A stretch of 37,112 nt of DNA from IMG/VR virus record IMGVR_UViG_3300018421_000080, positions 1 through 37,112 of that record. The stretch is one strand, 5' to 3'. Numbering within the stretch: the first letter of the stretch is position 1; every line of letters begins with the position of its first letter. Both the position numbers and the translations under genes were made by a program. Positions 8,366 to 37,112 of the stretch are shown here, one piece after another. This stretch comes from a virus. A model generated the notes under the pieces. The model saw nothing but the letters and a program-made list of their open reading frames with translations. It had not been told where the DNA came from and searched no databases.

Positions 8366-9432
8366 TGCAAATTGCTGTCTTGAACGATACCCATTGCGGT
8401 ATCCGTAACTCTTCTGACATCTTTCATGATAATGAAGAGAGATTTTATAATGAGGTCTTTTTCCCAACCTTATTGGATATGGGGATTAAACGTATTGTAC
8501 ATCTTGGTGATGTATTCGATAACCGTAAGTTTATTAACTTTAAGTCACTCCATCGATACCGTAAAACATTCTTGGCTAAGCTACGTGAGTACGGTATGCA
8601 CATGGATGTTATTCCAGGTAACCACGACACCTTCTATAAAAATACAAATGATCTGAATAGTTTGAAAGAGCTTCTTGGTCACTATATGAATGAGGTTACT
8701 ATTCATATGGAACCTACTGTAGTAAACTACGACGGATTTAAGTTAGCACTACTACCTTGGATCTGCGCAGAGAACTACGACCGCTCTCTTGAGTTCATTA
8801 AAACGTGTAAGGCAGATTGGCTTGGTGGTCACTTAGAGCTACAAGGCTTCGAAGTCATGAAAGGGGTAGTATCGCCACATGGCTTAGATCATAAACTATT
8901 CTCCCGTTTTGAACAGGTTATATCTGGACACTTTCATACCAAATCAGAAAAAGATAATATCTTGTATCTTGGTTCCCAGATGGAATTCTTTTGGAATGAT
9001 GCACATGATCCAAAGTCATTCCATATCATTAACACTGAACGTCGTGATATTACTGCTATTCCGAATCCAAATACGTTATATGAAAAAATCGTCTATGATG
9101 ATACTAAACACGACTATATGGATTATCTACAGTATAACCAGCACTTAGATAACAAGTTTGTTAAGGTTGTAGTTATAAATAAAACTGATCTGTATATGTT
9201 CGATAAGTTCATCGATGCTATTCAGTCTAGACCAATTCATGAACTAAAGATTGCCGAGAACTTTAATGAGTTCTTAGGTGAAAACGTAGAAGATGAAAAC
9301 ATTTCGGTGGAAGACACTGCGGAACTATTAGATAATTATGTCGATGCAGTAGATACAGATCTTGACAAAGAACGTATTAAAATTTATATGAGAAATTTAC
9401 TTACCGAGGCCCAGACTCTTGAGGTCGCTTAA
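8365..9432 (+). CDS. 47: recombination endonuclease subunit gp47 (SbcD/Mre11-like)
   Basis: Nuclease subunit of the gp46-gp47 complex that resects DNA ends for recombination-dependent replication and host DNA breakdown. The calcineurin-like phosphoesterase motifs are all present: N-D-T-H (Asp8, His10), G-D-V-F-D-N-R (Asp49), G-N-H-D (85-88), G-G-H-L-E and G-H-F-H-T-K. The length of 355 residues compares with 339 in T4. The ATG overlaps the gp55 stop (TAATG). Unusually, gp46 does not follow directly: a radical-SAM gene lies between, starting in the stop codon of this gene. Confidence 0.96.
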   Translation: MQIAVLNDTHCGIRNSSDIFHDNEERFYNEVFFPTLLDMGIKRIVHLGDVFDNRKFINFKSLHRYRKTFLAKLREYGMHMDVIPGNHDTFYKNTNDLNSLKELLGHYMNEVTIHMEPTVVNYDGFKLALLPWICAENYDRSLEFIKTCKADWLGGHLELQGFEVMKGVVSPHGLDHKLFSRFEQVISGHFHTKSEKDNILYLGSQMEFFWNDAHDPKSFHIINTERRDITAIPNPNTLYEKIVYDDTKHDYMDYLQYNQHLDNKFVKVVVINKTDLYMFDKFIDAIQSRPIHELKIAENFNEFLGENVEDENISVEDTAELLDNYVDAVDTDLDKERIKIYMRNLLTEAQTLEVA

Positions 9433-10916
9433 TGGACTTTGTACTCTGCATATTACCTAAGGTATTACCAACAGCACCAACCAGCGGGGTTGGTGTTTTA
9501 AAGTCACATCTTGAGGCTGCAGGTTTTACTGCAAAAATTCTAGATTGGAATGTAAGTCTTTATAATGCTCTTGATGAGGATGAAAAGGAAGGATATATTT
9601 CTGGTACTGTTGCAGGTACGGAGAATGGAGAAAATATATGGAATAGTTATTCCAGGAAGCCTTATGGGGATAGAAATTTTATAAATTTTAGAAAATTTAC
9701 TAAAAAATACCGGGATGCTATTGATGGATGGATTTTTGAATTAAAAGAATTAAAACCTAAATGGATCGGCCTGAGTCTTTTAGCTTGGAGGACATCAAGC
9801 TCTTTTGCAGTCTATATGTGTGAACGTATCAGAAAGAATATACCTGATGCTAAAATAGTACTTGGTGGGACAGGTATTGAAGCTTCATCTTGTAAAGTGT
9901 ATAAGGAATTAGGTTTAATTGATCATTGGATCTTTGGTGATGCAGAAAACTCTTTAATTGAATTAATGAAAGGTAATATGAAATATCCTGGTATCGATTC
10001 TCTAATACCTGGTCAATTACACGATCTAGATCAGATGATGTTACCTAATTATGATGATATTGATTGGTCTTTATACAAGGAAGAAGAGATTGATACAGGA
10101 TTTAAAGGTGGCGTTGCTCATGTAACTGGATCCCGTGGATGTGTACGAAACTGTGACTTTTGTGATGTAAATAGACTTTGGCCTAAGTACAGGTTTAGAT
10201 CCTCAGAAAAGATCTTTGAGGAAATGGTTATGTACAAAGAAAAGTACAACCGAACTCTTATACATTTCAATGATTCTCTTATAAATGGTAGTATGAAAAC
10301 CTACAGAGAATTAATGAAAATAATATCATCGGATCCAAGAGCAGAAGGACTAAGATGGCATAGCCAATTTATTATTCGTAGTGAAAGACAAATGACCCCT
10401 GAAGACTGGGAGTTAACCTCAAAGGCTAACCCTGCTCTTCTTGAGATCGGTGTAGAATCTTTTTCACAAAAAGTCAGAGAAGATATGGAAAAGGGGTTTA
10501 CAAACGATGATTATTGGTATACAATGAATATGATAAAAAAATATGAGATCCCAACCTGGATTAATATCTTATTTGGTTATCCGACTGAAACAGAAGAAGA
10601 TCACGAGATAAATCTAGATAGTCTTCGGCGTATGTATAAAGACGGGTATAGCCCACTAATTCGTGTACTTCCCGTATCTACTTTTGGTATGAGTAGAGAT
10701 GAAAAAGCCTATCAAAAATATAAGTCTGAACTGACTGGTGGTTTCTGGGACTGGGAGTGGCGAGGAAACACCGAACGTGTACGAAAAAGAAGACAGCTTG
10801 AATTTTTAGAGCTTCAGGATTCGCTGGAAACAGAATATGGTGGTCCAGGCCTTTTTAGTACGGGTAAACAAAGACTCACTTATCGTAGAAAAGAACGTGA
10901 GCTCGGGTATATATAA
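9432..10916 (+). CDS. radical SAM protein with B12-binding-like N-terminus
   Basis: Radical SAM enzyme of the cobalamin-binding-domain class. Residues 1-170 have the Rossmann-like B12-binding layout (P-T-x-x-x-G-V-G-V-L-K-S-H-L-E-A-A-G, later I-V-L-G-G-T-G), but the D-x-H-x-x-G cobalamin-ligand motif is absent (I-L-D-W-N instead). The [4Fe-4S]-binding C-x3-C-x2-C is at Cys237, Cys241 and Cys244 in G-C-V-R-N-C-D-F-C, followed by a TIM-barrel region with N-D-S and E-I-G-V-E-S. The substrate is unknown. The gene is wedged between gp47 and gp46 with a TAATG overlap, and its Arg codons are mostly AGA/AGG, unlike both neighbours: an inserted accessory gene by inference. Confidence 0.9.
   Translation: MDFVLCILPKVLPTAPTSGVGVLKSHLEAAGFTAKILDWNVSLYNALDEDEKEGYISGTVAGTENGENIWNSYSRKPYGDRNFINFRKFTKKYRDAIDGWIFELKELKPKWIGLSLLAWRTSSSFAVYMCERIRKNIPDAKIVLGGTGIEASSCKVYKELGLIDHWIFGDAENSLIELMKGNMKYPGIDSLIPGQLHDLDQMMLPNYDDIDWSLYKEEEIDTGFKGGVAHVTGSRGCVRNCDFCDVNRLWPKYRFRSSEKIFEEMVMYKEKYNRTLIHFNDSLINGSMKTYRELMKIISSDPRAEGLRWHSQFIIRSERQMTPEDWELTSKANPALLEIGVESFSQKVREDMEKGFTNDDYWYTMNMIKKYEIPTWINILFGYPTETEEDHEINLDSLRRMYKDGYSPLIRVLPVSTFGMSRDEKAYQKYKSELTGGFWDWEWRGNTERVRKRRQLEFLELQDSLETEYGGPGLFSTGKQRLTYRRKERELGYI
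10497..10525 (+). promoter_or_regulatory. possible internal early promoter inside the radical-SAM gene
   Basis: GGGG then TTTACA (10497-10502), 17 nt, TACAAT (10520-10525). It would fire towards gp46, about 420 nt downstream. It has the same layout as the intergenic promoters, but lies inside coding sequence, so it is less certain. Confidence 0.5.
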
Positions 10917-26056: not shown

Positions 26057-26762
26057 AGGCTTATTCAAGCTACGTCACCTACTATATCATCAAGGTTATG
26101 AAATACAGACAGCATCGTGGCAGGGTACCGAGTCTCCTCCTGTTTTTTTAGAGGTACTACATGCTGATCTGACAGCAAAGATGAGTGATGATCCGCAAGA
26201 AGCCTCCGATCTTTGTAATGCCACGCAACCGTGGGCAGATGTCCACTTTGCAGAACGTGTTGGTGGTGAACCACTTAATCCACCACCTTCACATACGATG
26301 TGGCTGAAAGATACTGATCAGTATTTGTCTGGTCAGGCTTTCAGTCACTCGTACCCTGAACGTATGTGGGCACCAAGTATGGATGGTATCAGGTTCAAAA
26401 CTGGTAACCTTGGTGATGCAGTAGAACTTCTAAAGAAAGATCCTACTACTCGTCAATGTTATATCCCTATGTGGTTTCCAGAAGATATTGTAGCTGCCAA
26501 TGAAGGTGAACGTGTACCTTGTTCCTTTGGTTGGCACTTTATGGAACGTGGTGATGAACTACATTGTTCTTATCACATGCGTTCGTGTGACGTAGTTCGT
26601 CACTTACACAACGATCTGTACTTCGCAAACAGACTTGGTCTATGGTTAATTGAGCAAAGTGGTCTCACCTGTAAAATGGGGTATTTACATTTCAGCTCAA
26701 CTAGTTTACACTGTTTTAGTAATGATCGTTTCGCACTTGGTAGATTGATTGGAGTAGAATAA
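26025..26762 (+). CDS. gp42-like dCMP hydroxymethylase candidate (thymidylate synthase fold)
   Basis: Thymidylate synthase superfamily: T-R-Q-C-Y-I-P-M-W-F-P-E-D-I (about 142-155) equals the S-R-R-I-x-x-x-W-N-P-x-D block; the catalytic Cys166 is in V-P-C; and M-R-S-C-D-V-V-R-H-L-H-N-D (185-197) aligns without gaps to T4 dCMP hydroxymethylase M-R-S-N-D-V-V-F-G-F-R-N-D. The final Asp197 replaces the Asn that selects dUMP in thymidylate synthase; this Asp is the cytosine-specificity residue in gp42. The length of 245 equals gp42 (246). ThyX elsewhere in the window already provides dTMP. It probably makes 5-hydroxymethyl-dCMP; a methylase activity is the alternative. Confidence 0.8.
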   Translation: MNKVTGRNLGEGLFKLRHLLYHQGYEIQTASWQGTESPPVFLEVLHADLTAKMSDDPQEASDLCNATQPWADVHFAERVGGEPLNPPPSHTMWLKDTDQYLSGQAFSHSYPERMWAPSMDGIRFKTGNLGDAVELLKKDPTTRQCYIPMWFPEDIVAANEGERVPCSFGWHFMERGDELHCSYHMRSCDVVRHLHNDLYFANRLGLWLIEQSGLTCKMGYLHFSSTSLHCFSNDRFALGRLIGVE

Positions 26763-28054
26763 TGTGTGGCTTTGTAGCTTATCCTGTTGGTAAGAATCCA
26801 GAAACAGTAATACGTTCTATTGGCTATCGTGGCCTAGAGAATTACATTGGTTATAGAGACTGGCAAGGTTTTACATTTGCACACACGTCACTACCATTTG
26901 TTAATCTAGACCCACTCTTTGCTATCCAGCCGAACACATACAGTGTCCCAGGATTATTCGTTGGCGAAGTATTCAATTATGACACAGATTATGCTTCTGA
27001 CGTAGAATATGTTCATAATGCATTTCATAATCATGGTACAGATTGTTTTCATGACTTTGATGGATTCTGGACATATGTCACAATGATTGATAATCATTTG
27101 TTTGGTATGACAGACTTCCTGGGTATTAAACCATTATATTACCGTACTGATGTAGAAGCAATGGCTTCTGAGATTGAGGTATTAAAGCTATTTGGTAAAG
27201 TTACACTCGACGAAACATTTATGTCGAACACAATGAAATGGGGTTACTCCCCTGATCCACGTACACCGTACAATGAGATCAAACAAGTTCCACCTGGTCA
27301 TTATGTACATAAAGGCCAGGTACACAGTTACTGGAATTGGGACAAAGTTGAGTATGGAGACCTATACCAAGACATGAAGCGTTCTGTCTCCGCGCGTCTT
27401 GGTGGTCAGAGAGAAGTTTCTATTCTTCTCTCAGGTGGTCTCGATTCCAGTATCATCTACGGACTGCTGAAAGAACTTGGTCGTGATGTTACCACGATCC
27501 ACGTAGATAATCATGAGAAAGACTTCGCACACTTAGTCTCCTCCTCCCTCGTCGACGTCACTCTTGATGAAGTCAGTGATCTTGACGCAGTCCGTATCCA
27601 CCAATCACCAGTCGACCTCGGGTCCGTTAAACCACAAATTGCTATGGCTAGAAAGCTACGTGAGTTAGGATTCCATGCAGTGTTGACTGGTGATGGTGCT
27701 GATGAATTATTCGGTGGTTACCGACGTGCAAAAGAATATGATAGTCAATATTCAGATATATTCTGTGAACTACCATATTATCACCTTCCGAAGTTAGATC
27801 GTACTATGATGCGTTCTACAATCGAACTTCGTGCACCTTTCCTCGCACCTTATATTGTAAAGCACGCACTAAAAACGCCATACATATTAAGAGACGGTGA
27901 AAAGAAGGTTCTAAAAGAAACCTTTAAGGACATTGTTCCAAAGGAGATTATTGATCGTGATAAACATCCTCTCAAAACTAAAGAAATCCACGCCTCCCCA
28001 ACCGCCAAAAGAGGTACCAATGACAACCTCTTCAGACAACTCCAAGTGGGATAG
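26762..28054 (+). CDS. asnB: asparagine synthetase, glutamine-hydrolysing (AsnB-like)
   Basis: N-terminal glutaminase domain starting M-C-G-F with nucleophile Cys2 exposed after Met removal, and a shortened class II amidotransferase domain (G-Y-R-G, D-F-D-G-F-W, D-F-L-G-I-K-P-L-Y-Y). The C-terminal synthetase domain has the PP-loop S-G-G-L-D-S-S, then L-T-G-D-G-A-D-E-L-F-G-G-Y and E-L-R-A-P-F. At 430 residues it is shorter than bacterial AsnB (about 550), like phage versions. It may support asparagine supply or amidate another carboxylate. The ATG shares a base with the previous stop (TAATG). Confidence 0.92.
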   Translation: MCGFVAYPVGKNPETVIRSIGYRGLENYIGYRDWQGFTFAHTSLPFVNLDPLFAIQPNTYSVPGLFVGEVFNYDTDYASDVEYVHNAFHNHGTDCFHDFDGFWTYVTMIDNHLFGMTDFLGIKPLYYRTDVEAMASEIEVLKLFGKVTLDETFMSNTMKWGYSPDPRTPYNEIKQVPPGHYVHKGQVHSYWNWDKVEYGDLYQDMKRSVSARLGGQREVSILLSGGLDSSIIYGLLKELGRDVTTIHVDNHEKDFAHLVSSSLVDVTLDEVSDLDAVRIHQSPVDLGSVKPQIAMARKLRELGFHAVLTGDGADELFGGYRRAKEYDSQYSDIFCELPYYHLPKLDRTMMRSTIELRAPFLAPYIVKHALKTPYILRDGEKKVLKETFKDIVPKEIIDRDKHPLKTKEIHASPTAKRGTNDNLFRQLQVG

Positions 28055-35542: not shown

Positions 35543-36037
35543 ATGAAAATATTGATAATTGGATATGGTCGGCATGGCAAAGATACAGTAGCAGAGTATC
35601 TCCGTGACCACTATGGCTTAACGTTTAAGTCTTCATCTATGCATTGTGCAGAGAATGCAGTATTCCCTGCACTCAAAGATATGTACGGTTATAATACTGT
35701 AGAAGAATGCTTTGCCGATCGTTCTAACCACCGCACAGAATGGTATGATCTTATCTCAAAGTATTGTGAATCAGATCCTGCCCGTATTGGTCGTGAGATC
35801 TTCGAAGTCTCTGATATGTACTGTGGTCTGAGAAACAAACGTGAGTTTCATGCCATTCGCAATAATGGTCTTGTAGATGTTACTATCTGGGTTGATCGTT
35901 CAGATTGGTTACCAGCTGAAGATAAATCAAGTAATACACTTGAACCTTGGATGGCTGATTATGTTATCGATAACAATCGTGACCTTGATGAGCTTTATTG
36001 TAACGTAGATGATCTAATGAGGAACATATGCAAATAA
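35543..36037 (+). CDS. deoxynucleoside monophosphate kinase-like P-loop protein
   Basis: P-loop kinase G-Y-G-R-H-G-K-D-T-V-A-E-Y-L (7-20), resembling T4 gp1 V-K-R-S-G-K-D-T-T-A-D-F. Later come V-S-D-M-Y-C-G-L-R-N-K-R-E-F, the counterpart of the gp1 P-D-T-R-Q segment, and V-T-I-W-V-D-R-S. T4 gp1 phosphorylates hydroxymethyl-dCMP, dTMP and dGMP. At 164 residues it is shorter than gp1 (241), so the exact substrate is open. It has its own early promoter and probably a leaderless mRNA, and overlaps the next gene by 10 nt. Confidence 0.72.
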   Translation: MKILIIGYGRHGKDTVAEYLRDHYGLTFKSSSMHCAENAVFPALKDMYGYNTVEECFADRSNHRTEWYDLISKYCESDPARIGREIFEVSDMYCGLRNKREFHAIRNNGLVDVTIWVDRSDWLPAEDKSSNTLEPWMADYVIDNNRDLDELYCNVDDLMRNICK

Positions 36038-36933
36038 AACCTATACAAAATGGTGTGGCTGTTGAGATAACAGATATTGATATTACAGCCTTTGATAAGA
36101 GTAGTGATTATGATTTTGTAAGAGATACATTACATAAACATCTTGTTGTGGTTATTAAAAATCAATCTACTAATCCATGGGAATATACACGTTTCATAGA
36201 AAATATAGGTAGAGTTGCTAACTATAATCAATTTGGATTTACTATAGATGCTGAAGAATATCCACGGGATCAAGTAGTTCCTACTAATCGGTTTAAAGGT
36301 GATACTTGGCGTTATCCTGTACAACGAGTAACAGGAAAAAAGAAAAAAGGTAAGTTTACTGGTATATTTGGTACAGGTAAACTAGATTGGCATGCTAACT
36401 TAAATGGGCCAGACCGCGCTGATGGTGTTGCACTACAAGGATGGGAACATTGTGAAAATACATCGACATCATTCCTGAACACTAATCTAGCATATAATGA
36501 CTTGGATCCGGGTATGTTAGATGAAATAAAAGATCTCTATTGTGAATATGAATATGCACCTGAAGTTTGGGCTGAAGGCTTACCTGAAGACCAACTTCGT
36601 CGTATGAAACAAAATTCAAATAAGTATAAAATGTGGTTAATCCAAGAGAACCTAAAAGGCGTAAAGGGTCTTTATTTTTATACGAATAATAGATGTAAAC
36701 TCATTTGTCCTGATCAGAGCCTTTATAATGAAATACATGATCATCTGTTTCAGGACAAATACATATATCAACACTGGTGGGAACCCGGTGATATTGTATT
36801 AATGGATCAGCTCTTGACTTTGCATAAGCGTGACCAAAATGATACAGAAATATTACAAAAGCGGGTATTACATAGAATTACTTTCAGAATTTCTAATGAA
36901 AATGGTTTTATAGCACGTAGAAACGATATATAA
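36028..36933 (+). CDS. TauD/TfdA-family oxygenase-like protein, H-x-N variant
   Basis: Taurine-dioxygenase-like 2OG oxygenase: N-terminal H-L-V-V-V-I-K-N-Q, then L-D-W-H-A-N-L-N-G-P-x-R (120-130) in the place of the family W-H-x-D, with His122 and Asn124, and a late I-V-L-M-D-Q-L-L-T-L-H-K-R with the distal His, followed by L-H-R-I-T-F-R-I. The iron-ligand Asp is replaced by Asn, an uncommon change. 301 residues, family length about 280. The substrate is unknown; relatives hydroxylate amino acids, sulfonates or carnitine precursors. The tmRNA-like piece follows. Confidence 0.8.
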   Translation: MQIKPIQNGVAVEITDIDITAFDKSSDYDFVRDTLHKHLVVVIKNQSTNPWEYTRFIENIGRVANYNQFGFTIDAEEYPRDQVVPTNRFKGDTWRYPVQRVTGKKKKGKFTGIFGTGKLDWHANLNGPDRADGVALQGWEHCENTSTSFLNTNLAYNDLDPGMLDEIKDLYCEYEYAPEVWAEGLPEDQLRRMKQNSNKYKMWLIQENLKGVKGLYFYTNNRCKLICPDQSLYNEIHDHLFQDKYIYQHWWEPGDIVLMDQLLTLHKRDQNDTEILQKRVLHRITFRISNENGFIARRNDI

Positions 36934-36935
36934 AG

Positions 36936-37000
36936 ATTGTAACGGTGAAGCAAACCAAAAGGTATACTGGACACGGGGGCAGTACCCGTCGCCTCCACCA
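36936..37000 (+). ncRNA. ssrA: tmRNA-like acceptor piece (permuted, two-piece type), partial
   Basis: Ends in a complete tRNA-like 3' half: a 5-bp T-stem ACGGG/CCCGT (36973-36977 with 36985-36989), a 7-nt loop GGCAGTA, an acceptor strand CGCCTCC (36990-36996), discriminator A and an encoded CCA (36998-37000). No matching GGAGGCG or GGGGGCG lies in the 90 nt upstream, so it is not a tRNA. In circularly permuted alphaproteobacterial tmRNA genes the acceptor piece precedes the coding piece, and the GGCAGTA-type loop fits what I recall of that family. The 5' boundary is approximate. The window ends with GGA, which could begin the partner strand. An integration site copied from a host ssrA gene is the alternative. 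Confidence 0.65.
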
Positions 37001-37112
37001 TAAACACATTGGAATATCATTGAAGGCAACAAAAAAAAGAACCTTAGTCAAAGCACTTATATACAGATGTTGGGTTATACTTTCAACTTATATTATGTTA
37101 TTGATTACTGGA

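Follow-up and report, generated by a model that had tools for sequence, protein, structure and literature searches.

Putative small protein genes in the linker of permuted two-piece tmRNAs of phages

Two-piece tmRNAs have already been described in the phages Melnitz and Mosig, and 50 of the 53 two-piece phage tmRNAs surveyed came from marine or aquatic samples (PMC9004378). tmRNA group I introns with homing endonuclease genes are also known, as are one nominally archaeal permuted tmRNA with a tRNA gene in its intervening sequence (IVS, or linker) and one repetitive element in a linker (PMC11915505). The terms ORF and open reading are absent from the main text of that 2025 tmRNA database paper (PMC11915505), and no earlier report of protein genes in permuted tmRNA linkers was found in the open-licence PMC literature.

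The viral locus described here holds the acceptor piece of a tmRNA of the permuted, two-piece type, and is as such of a known kind. From comparison of related sequences, what appears to be new is a conserved small protein gene in the linker, the use of this one slot by several unrelated families, and the occurrence of nearly unchanged linkers between different tmRNA halves.

The truncated tmRNA gene and its complete copies

The window, i.e., the whole stretch of DNA analysed, is a complete IMG/VR virus record of 37112 bases; the record ends inside the tmRNA gene, which is therefore cut off (Table 1). Bases 36973-37000 form a perfect T-arm (36973-36989: T-stem ACGGG 36973-36977, 7-nt loop GGCAGTA 36978-36984, CCCGT 36985-36989), followed by the acceptor strand CGCCTCC (36990-36996), an A (36997) and CCA (36998-37000). 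With E-values allowed, this end is matched by the Rfam models RF01849 (alpha_tmRNA; 36957-37112, 31 bits, E 2.4e-7, 3' cut off) and RF04321 (tmRNA_permuted; 36944-37112, 35.3 bits, E 1.4e-5), both below their gathering scores of 50 and 47, respectively; at gathering score Rfam gives no match to the truncated copy, and ARAGORN reports no tRNA and no tmRNA in the window. Of the domains recognised in the 10 window proteins scanned, Gp23, UvsW-like, family B polymerase and DnaB-like ones are also those of T4-like phages. The window further encodes, at 9432-10916 and 26762-28054, a radical SAM protein that has a B12-binding domain and a protein resembling asparagine synthase. C48C1, the closest named phage by DNA, has no RF04321 match.

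Table 1. Features at the 3' end of the window
Feature	Position	Strand	Remarks
TauD-family dioxygenase gene directly upstream of the acceptor piece	36028..36933	+	PF02668 (TauD), E 2.5e-25
Acceptor piece of permuted tmRNA	36934..37000	+	5' limit approximate (Rfam match begins at 36944)
First 112 of 238 nt of the intervening sequence (IVS, linker)	37001..37112	+	Other 126 nt and coding piece seen in L122/L136
TAAACACA, 5' strand of the IVS-end helix	37001..37008	+	Partner TGTGCTTA beyond the window, seen in L122
First 31 of 68 codons of a putative small protein gene nested in the IVS	37020..37112	+	TTG start, DUF2061-like, family A

The upstream TauD-family protein was used as query for contigs extending past the window end. 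It has 15 related loci in IMG/VR, three of which are identical over the whole protein: L122 and L136, which extend past the window end, and L123, which stops inside the linker. Over the last 3112 bases, the window shares 3097 with L122. L122 and L136 hold the full permuted tmRNA (RF04321 106.2 bits, RF01849 100.5 bits, over the gathering cutoff), which ARAGORN missed in both contigs; neither has an intron family match in Rfam. The coding piece begins with GGGGGCGAACTAGGATCGAC, 238 nt after the CCA, and encodes, beyond the window, the tag ANDNFAPQDMRLAA (L122). Its strand GGGGGCG is complementary to CGCCTCC, G3-U70 included (L122). This G-U pair is the alanine identity. Although a gene lies between the two, acceptor strand and coding piece match each other within every contig (CGCCTCC/GGGGGCG, CAGCTCC/GGGGCTG).

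The initial annotation had taken the tRNA-like 3' half ending at 37000 as a tmRNA acceptor piece, which the sequence, Rfam and the full gene in L122/L136 confirm. It had further read the gene as a permuted, alphaproteobacterial-type, two-piece tmRNA of a T4-like phage, in agreement with the RF01849 and RF04321 matches, the full gene and the window's protein domains; the coding piece that it looked for within 300 nt, with a complementary strand and a tag ending in Ala-Ala, is present in L122/L136. The strand itself was guessed wrongly, as GGAGGCG 108 nt after the CCA and beginning with the terminal GGA; GGA 37110-37112 is instead codon 31 (Gly) of the IVS frame. An alphaproteobacterial host does not follow either, as Melnitz has an alphaproteobacterial-type two-piece tmRNA yet is described as infecting OM43 (PMC9004378).

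Putative small protein families in the linker slot

In L122 the family A frame runs for 68 codons from the TTG at window position 37020, fills most of the IVS, and leaves 15 nt between its last sense codon and the coding piece. DUF2061 (PF09834) matches 10/10 family A members at E<=0.01 (best E 1.1e-17), and the window relative L137 by itself scores 19.6 bits vs a cutoff of 23.1. The structure predicted from 10 family A sequences consists of two helices (mean pLDDT 73, pTM 0.48). No Shine-Dalgarno-like 4-mer lies at the usual distance from the TTG start of the window relative, and tblastn of family A (68 aa, E<=0.001) gave no matches in the named-phage collection. Relatives are encoded at 16 viral loci: seven share this nested position (L137, L138, L139, L140 and L142 by script, L144 by Rfam, and L150, whose contig ends in the linker), and nine are freestanding, comprising L141 and L143, where the linker end sequences are kept and no tmRNA is seen, L145, directly upstream of a tmRNA, and L146-L149, L151 and L152, in other contexts. 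Rfam scans of five of the non-nested loci (L141, L145, L146, L148 and L152) gave a tmRNA in L145 only. The window record and the L123/L150 contig both stop inside the linker; a cassette common to different phages in one sample could break assemblies there.

Judging from the homologous frames collected, at least four unrelated small-protein families (A-D) appear to occupy the linker slot of phage permuted tmRNAs, the loci counted within a family including near-copies. Family B (35 aa, ICINNYS motif) is nested in 48/72 loci; Rfam scans of 19 of the 24 non-nested ones gave a tmRNA in L339 alone, where it lies apart from the frame. Family C (38-44 aa) comes with a short upstream frame that overlaps it and has AAGGAG directly after the CCA. 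It is nested in 70 of the best 80 of 275 relatives, 63 of them identified by script and another 7 by Rfam, which was applied to all of the 17 that the script did not call nested except L364 and L370. Family D (VITRDYF..KADAKIPKYLSG), whose peptide starts MFKWLSKTRLVV, is nested in 18/18 loci and matches four Melnitz records only in the named-phage collection, where tblastn of family C (44 aa, E<=0.1) finds no matches. The linker frame of L022 matches DUF6356 above cutoff (E 4.8e-8). PHROGs gave only weak matches of unknown function for linker frames, and no endonuclease profile matched those scanned. In L373 and L374 a family C frame stands free on the strand opposite to a permuted tmRNA, at a distance of no more than about 1 kb.

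The same acceptor pattern was scanned in viral and cellular collections, with counts taken from the matches listed, after dropping duplicates and loci whose pieces the script could not recognise. At least 120 viral loci gave 101 unique permuted genes by script, with 40 linkers of at least 100 nt and 18 of at least 150 nt, and at least 118 cellular loci gave 112 unique genes, with a median linker of 34.5 nt, the longest being 116 nt (one of at least 100 nt, none of at least 150 nt). Among the matches listed, frames of families A-D occur in 15/101 viral vs 0/112 cellular linkers; the viral count had been 16 before the removal of an apparent family B match in L025, a chance match in a frame other than L025's own long frame. 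Again among the matches listed, 20/40 viral linkers of at least 100 nt have a frame longer than in dinucleotide shuffles (p<0.05) and the other 20 no unusual frame (p>=0.05), as opposed to 0/13 cellular linkers of at least 60 nt at p<0.05, a weak control because cellular linkers are mostly short. In a second cellular sample (289 members of the class to which one of these genomes belongs) 270 matched, 263 of them over the cutoff. Four of the longest cellular linkers among the matches listed (115, 165, 89 and 48 nt by script) have no A-D frame by eye, and the bases of two, L446 (115 nt) and L447 (165 nt), look repeat-like by eye.

Some loci are unusual in other ways. By script, the linker of the permuted tmRNA in L050 measures just 9 nt; the candidate tag of the tmRNA in L090 and L100 is unusually long, at 29 residues (ANDNALSNVTFVDFSAPVTAVNEDFALAA); and in L274 (RcRudolph) an annotated hypothetical protein gene at 1425-1760 overlaps the acceptor piece of the RcRudolph permuted tmRNA.

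Apparent linker exchange, precursor folding and coding potential

Three linker cassettes are 99-100% identical between tmRNAs (Rfam tmRNAs in all cases) with coding pieces 53-61% identical. Between L137 and L139, 237/238 linker bases are identical, as opposed to 54/68 aligned bases in the acceptor and 126/171 in the coding pieces, and the flanks are no more alike than those of other pairs; the linkers of L089/L291 (109 nt) and L025/L373 (266 nt) are 99% identical and the coding pieces 53% and 61%, by the same gap-counting measure that gives 60% for L122/L139. In all three pairs, exact identity extends past the linker by a further 8-11 nt to the left and 4-22 nt to the right. Linkers are at least 90% identical in 143 pairs, and in 60 of these the coding pieces are at most 80% identical, with many of the strongest sharing L291. 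Close tmRNAs also occur with and without a long frame (L103, 121 nt, vs L112, 50 nt; L023, 117 nt, vs L064, 24 nt). As L138 and L139 come from one metagenome, chimeric assembly was considered; the fit of the acceptor strand to its own, and not its partner's, coding piece in L137/L139 and L025/L373 argues against it, while the strands of L089/L291 are equal and thus of no help.

Pairing between the two ends of the IVS lengthens the acceptor helix, which places the frame in the loop of a precursor hairpin. Mean pairing energies are -12.0 kcal/mol for own vs -3.8 for swapped partners in viruses (110 unique end pairs), and -11.0 vs -5.6 in cells (36 unique end pairs). Compared with 100 shuffles, the L122 precursor has a better fold (z -3.58), in which the acceptor helix continues into the linker. 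Closure of the Shine-Dalgarno sequence is predicted in 41/41 full and 0/41 nascent precursors of family C, as compared to 4/15 vs 1/15 in family B, 0/11 vs 0/11 in family D and 0/2 vs 0/2 in family A; predicted gating thus applies to family C and not to family A, to which the window's frame belongs.

The IVS may be a dedicated cassette site, where small genes enter, leave and swap as precise units from one set of tmRNA halves to another, and where folding of the precursor would gate translation (open in nascent RNA, closed once the coding piece is made), a proposal that we put forward tentatively. If true, one transcript would yield first a small protein and then a ribosome-rescue RNA. Odds that we regard as even attach to the nested gene being a passive passenger, with the linker tolerating inserts that homologous recombination between phages moves and with translation unlinked to processing. 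This would agree with the small phage genes that stand free in varied places, with exchange junctions in conserved tmRNA bases, which are possible short homologies, and with the lack of predicted gating in A and D. Against it, the family C ribosome-binding site lies within the conserved IVS-end helix in 41/41 unique precursors, and the identity that extends beyond the IVS in the three pairs is just the few bases given above.

That the cassette is a site-specific mobile element, with its ends forming the inverted repeat TAAACACA...TGTGTTTA, is unlikely: the end repeats are explained by the precursor helix, likewise present in cells that lack such genes, the end sequences differ between families, and no recombinase has been tied to the cassette so far, although in L141 and L143 the family A gene is flanked by these ends where no tmRNA is seen (L141 having no Rfam match) and identity stops near the IVS ends in the three exchanged pairs. 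A slightly smaller chance is left for self-targeting, whereby a frame without a stop before the coding piece would become a nonstop mRNA upon the RNase P cut and the small protein would be tagged by the tmRNA of the same transcript. Frames do reach into the coding piece, by 10 nt for the family B match in 42/48 nested loci (copies with AAATAGG end at that TAG, and L089, with AAACAGG, runs on) and by 13 codons in 13/18 family D loci; yet the window's family A, family C and the D loci L441-L444 stop before it, and the shared tail ATGGGGGCGAAATAG ends any frame in that register there.

For families A, B, C and C-short, pN/pS was computed from copies matched over a fixed length only, and among unique nested copies amounts to 0.22 in A (n=4), 0.26 in B (n=22), 0.215 in C (n=15) and 0.21 in C-short (n=22), vs 1.06-1.88 in the two wrong frames of the same DNA of A, B and C, these values being descriptive because pairs are not independent and A rests on four sequences. 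This pattern indicates purifying selection on families A, B and C, all of which also have freestanding homologues. Shine-Dalgarno-like 4-mers precede the start in 5/5 cases in family D (expected 0.9), 7/20 in B (1.8) and 2/3 in A (0.2), and are not enriched before the main family C frame (8/27, expected 8.5). A long noncoding linker with chance frames, in an otherwise ordinary phage two-piece tmRNA, would be in line with the phage two-piece tmRNAs already known, with the half of viral linkers of at least 100 nt (among the matches listed) that have no significant frame, and with the long cellular linkers of 115 and 165 nt devoid of A-D frames; it was rejected as very improbable, because codon-level conservation is confined to the right frame, homologous frames exist outside tmRNA, and Pfam domains are matched. 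An attachment site or a tmRNA fragment left by integration, which the window by itself could suggest with its acceptor piece only, has next to no probability and was dismissed because L122/L136 hold the complete tmRNA, with tag and matching strands.

A proposed mechanism and its relation to known systems

We regard it as quite probable that this is a two-piece (circularly permuted) phage tmRNA whose IVS became a slot for small protein genes. One transcript would carry the acceptor piece, the small gene and the coding piece, with translation of the small gene by ribosomes taking place while the RNA is nascent or still unprocessed. RNase P would then cut before GGGGGCG and 3' trimming would proceed to the CCA, with removal of the IVS, after which the two pieces would pair, receive alanine, and mark stalled proteins for proteolysis by adding ANDNFAPQDMRLAA. 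For family C alone, the Shine-Dalgarno sequence would form one strand of the IVS-end helix, so that completion of the transcript should shut the ribosome-binding site and confine translation to nascent RNA. The lack of a Shine-Dalgarno-like motif in the window relative and the restriction of predicted gating to family C slightly lower our confidence in both this core reading and the gated cassette site.

If true, the gene-within-gene layout would mean that the message for a protein is a segment discarded from a processed stable RNA. Nested genes would offer a reason for keeping permuted tmRNA genes in aquatic phages, and would add small proteins of phages that can escape annotation, since this stops at SsrA. 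As Melnitz is in culture and has a family D frame in its IVS, the idea is directly testable.

The alphaproteobacterial permuted tmRNA (RF01849/RF04321) shares with the locus an acceptor piece upstream and a coding piece downstream, complementary strands, an ANDN...LAA tag and paired IVS ends, but differs from it in the linker, which here comprises 238 nt with a protein gene, whereas the sampled cellular genes have a median of 34.5 nt and a longest of 116 nt (112 genes among the matches listed), plus 115 and 165 nt in the second sample. Melnitz and Mosig are likewise T4-like marine phages with alphaproteobacterial-type two-piece tmRNAs (PMC9004378); only SsrA is annotated over the family D frame in the four Melnitz records, and Mosig differs in having a 44-nt IVS. 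Just downstream of the tmRNA in L273 (Melnitz-1), a glutamine riboswitch match lies at 1856-1904, in agreement with PMC9004378. The tmRNA group I intron system also has a protein gene within a segment removed from the tmRNA, but is described as located in the T-loop region, self-splicing and encoding an endonuclease (PMC11915505), in contrast with the lack of intron family matches in L122/L136 and of endonuclease profiles in the frames scanned. Finally, the nominally archaeal permuted tmRNA resembles the phage genes in holding a second gene inside the IVS, but this is an RNA gene and a single case as reported in PMC11915505, as opposed to the several protein families in phages.
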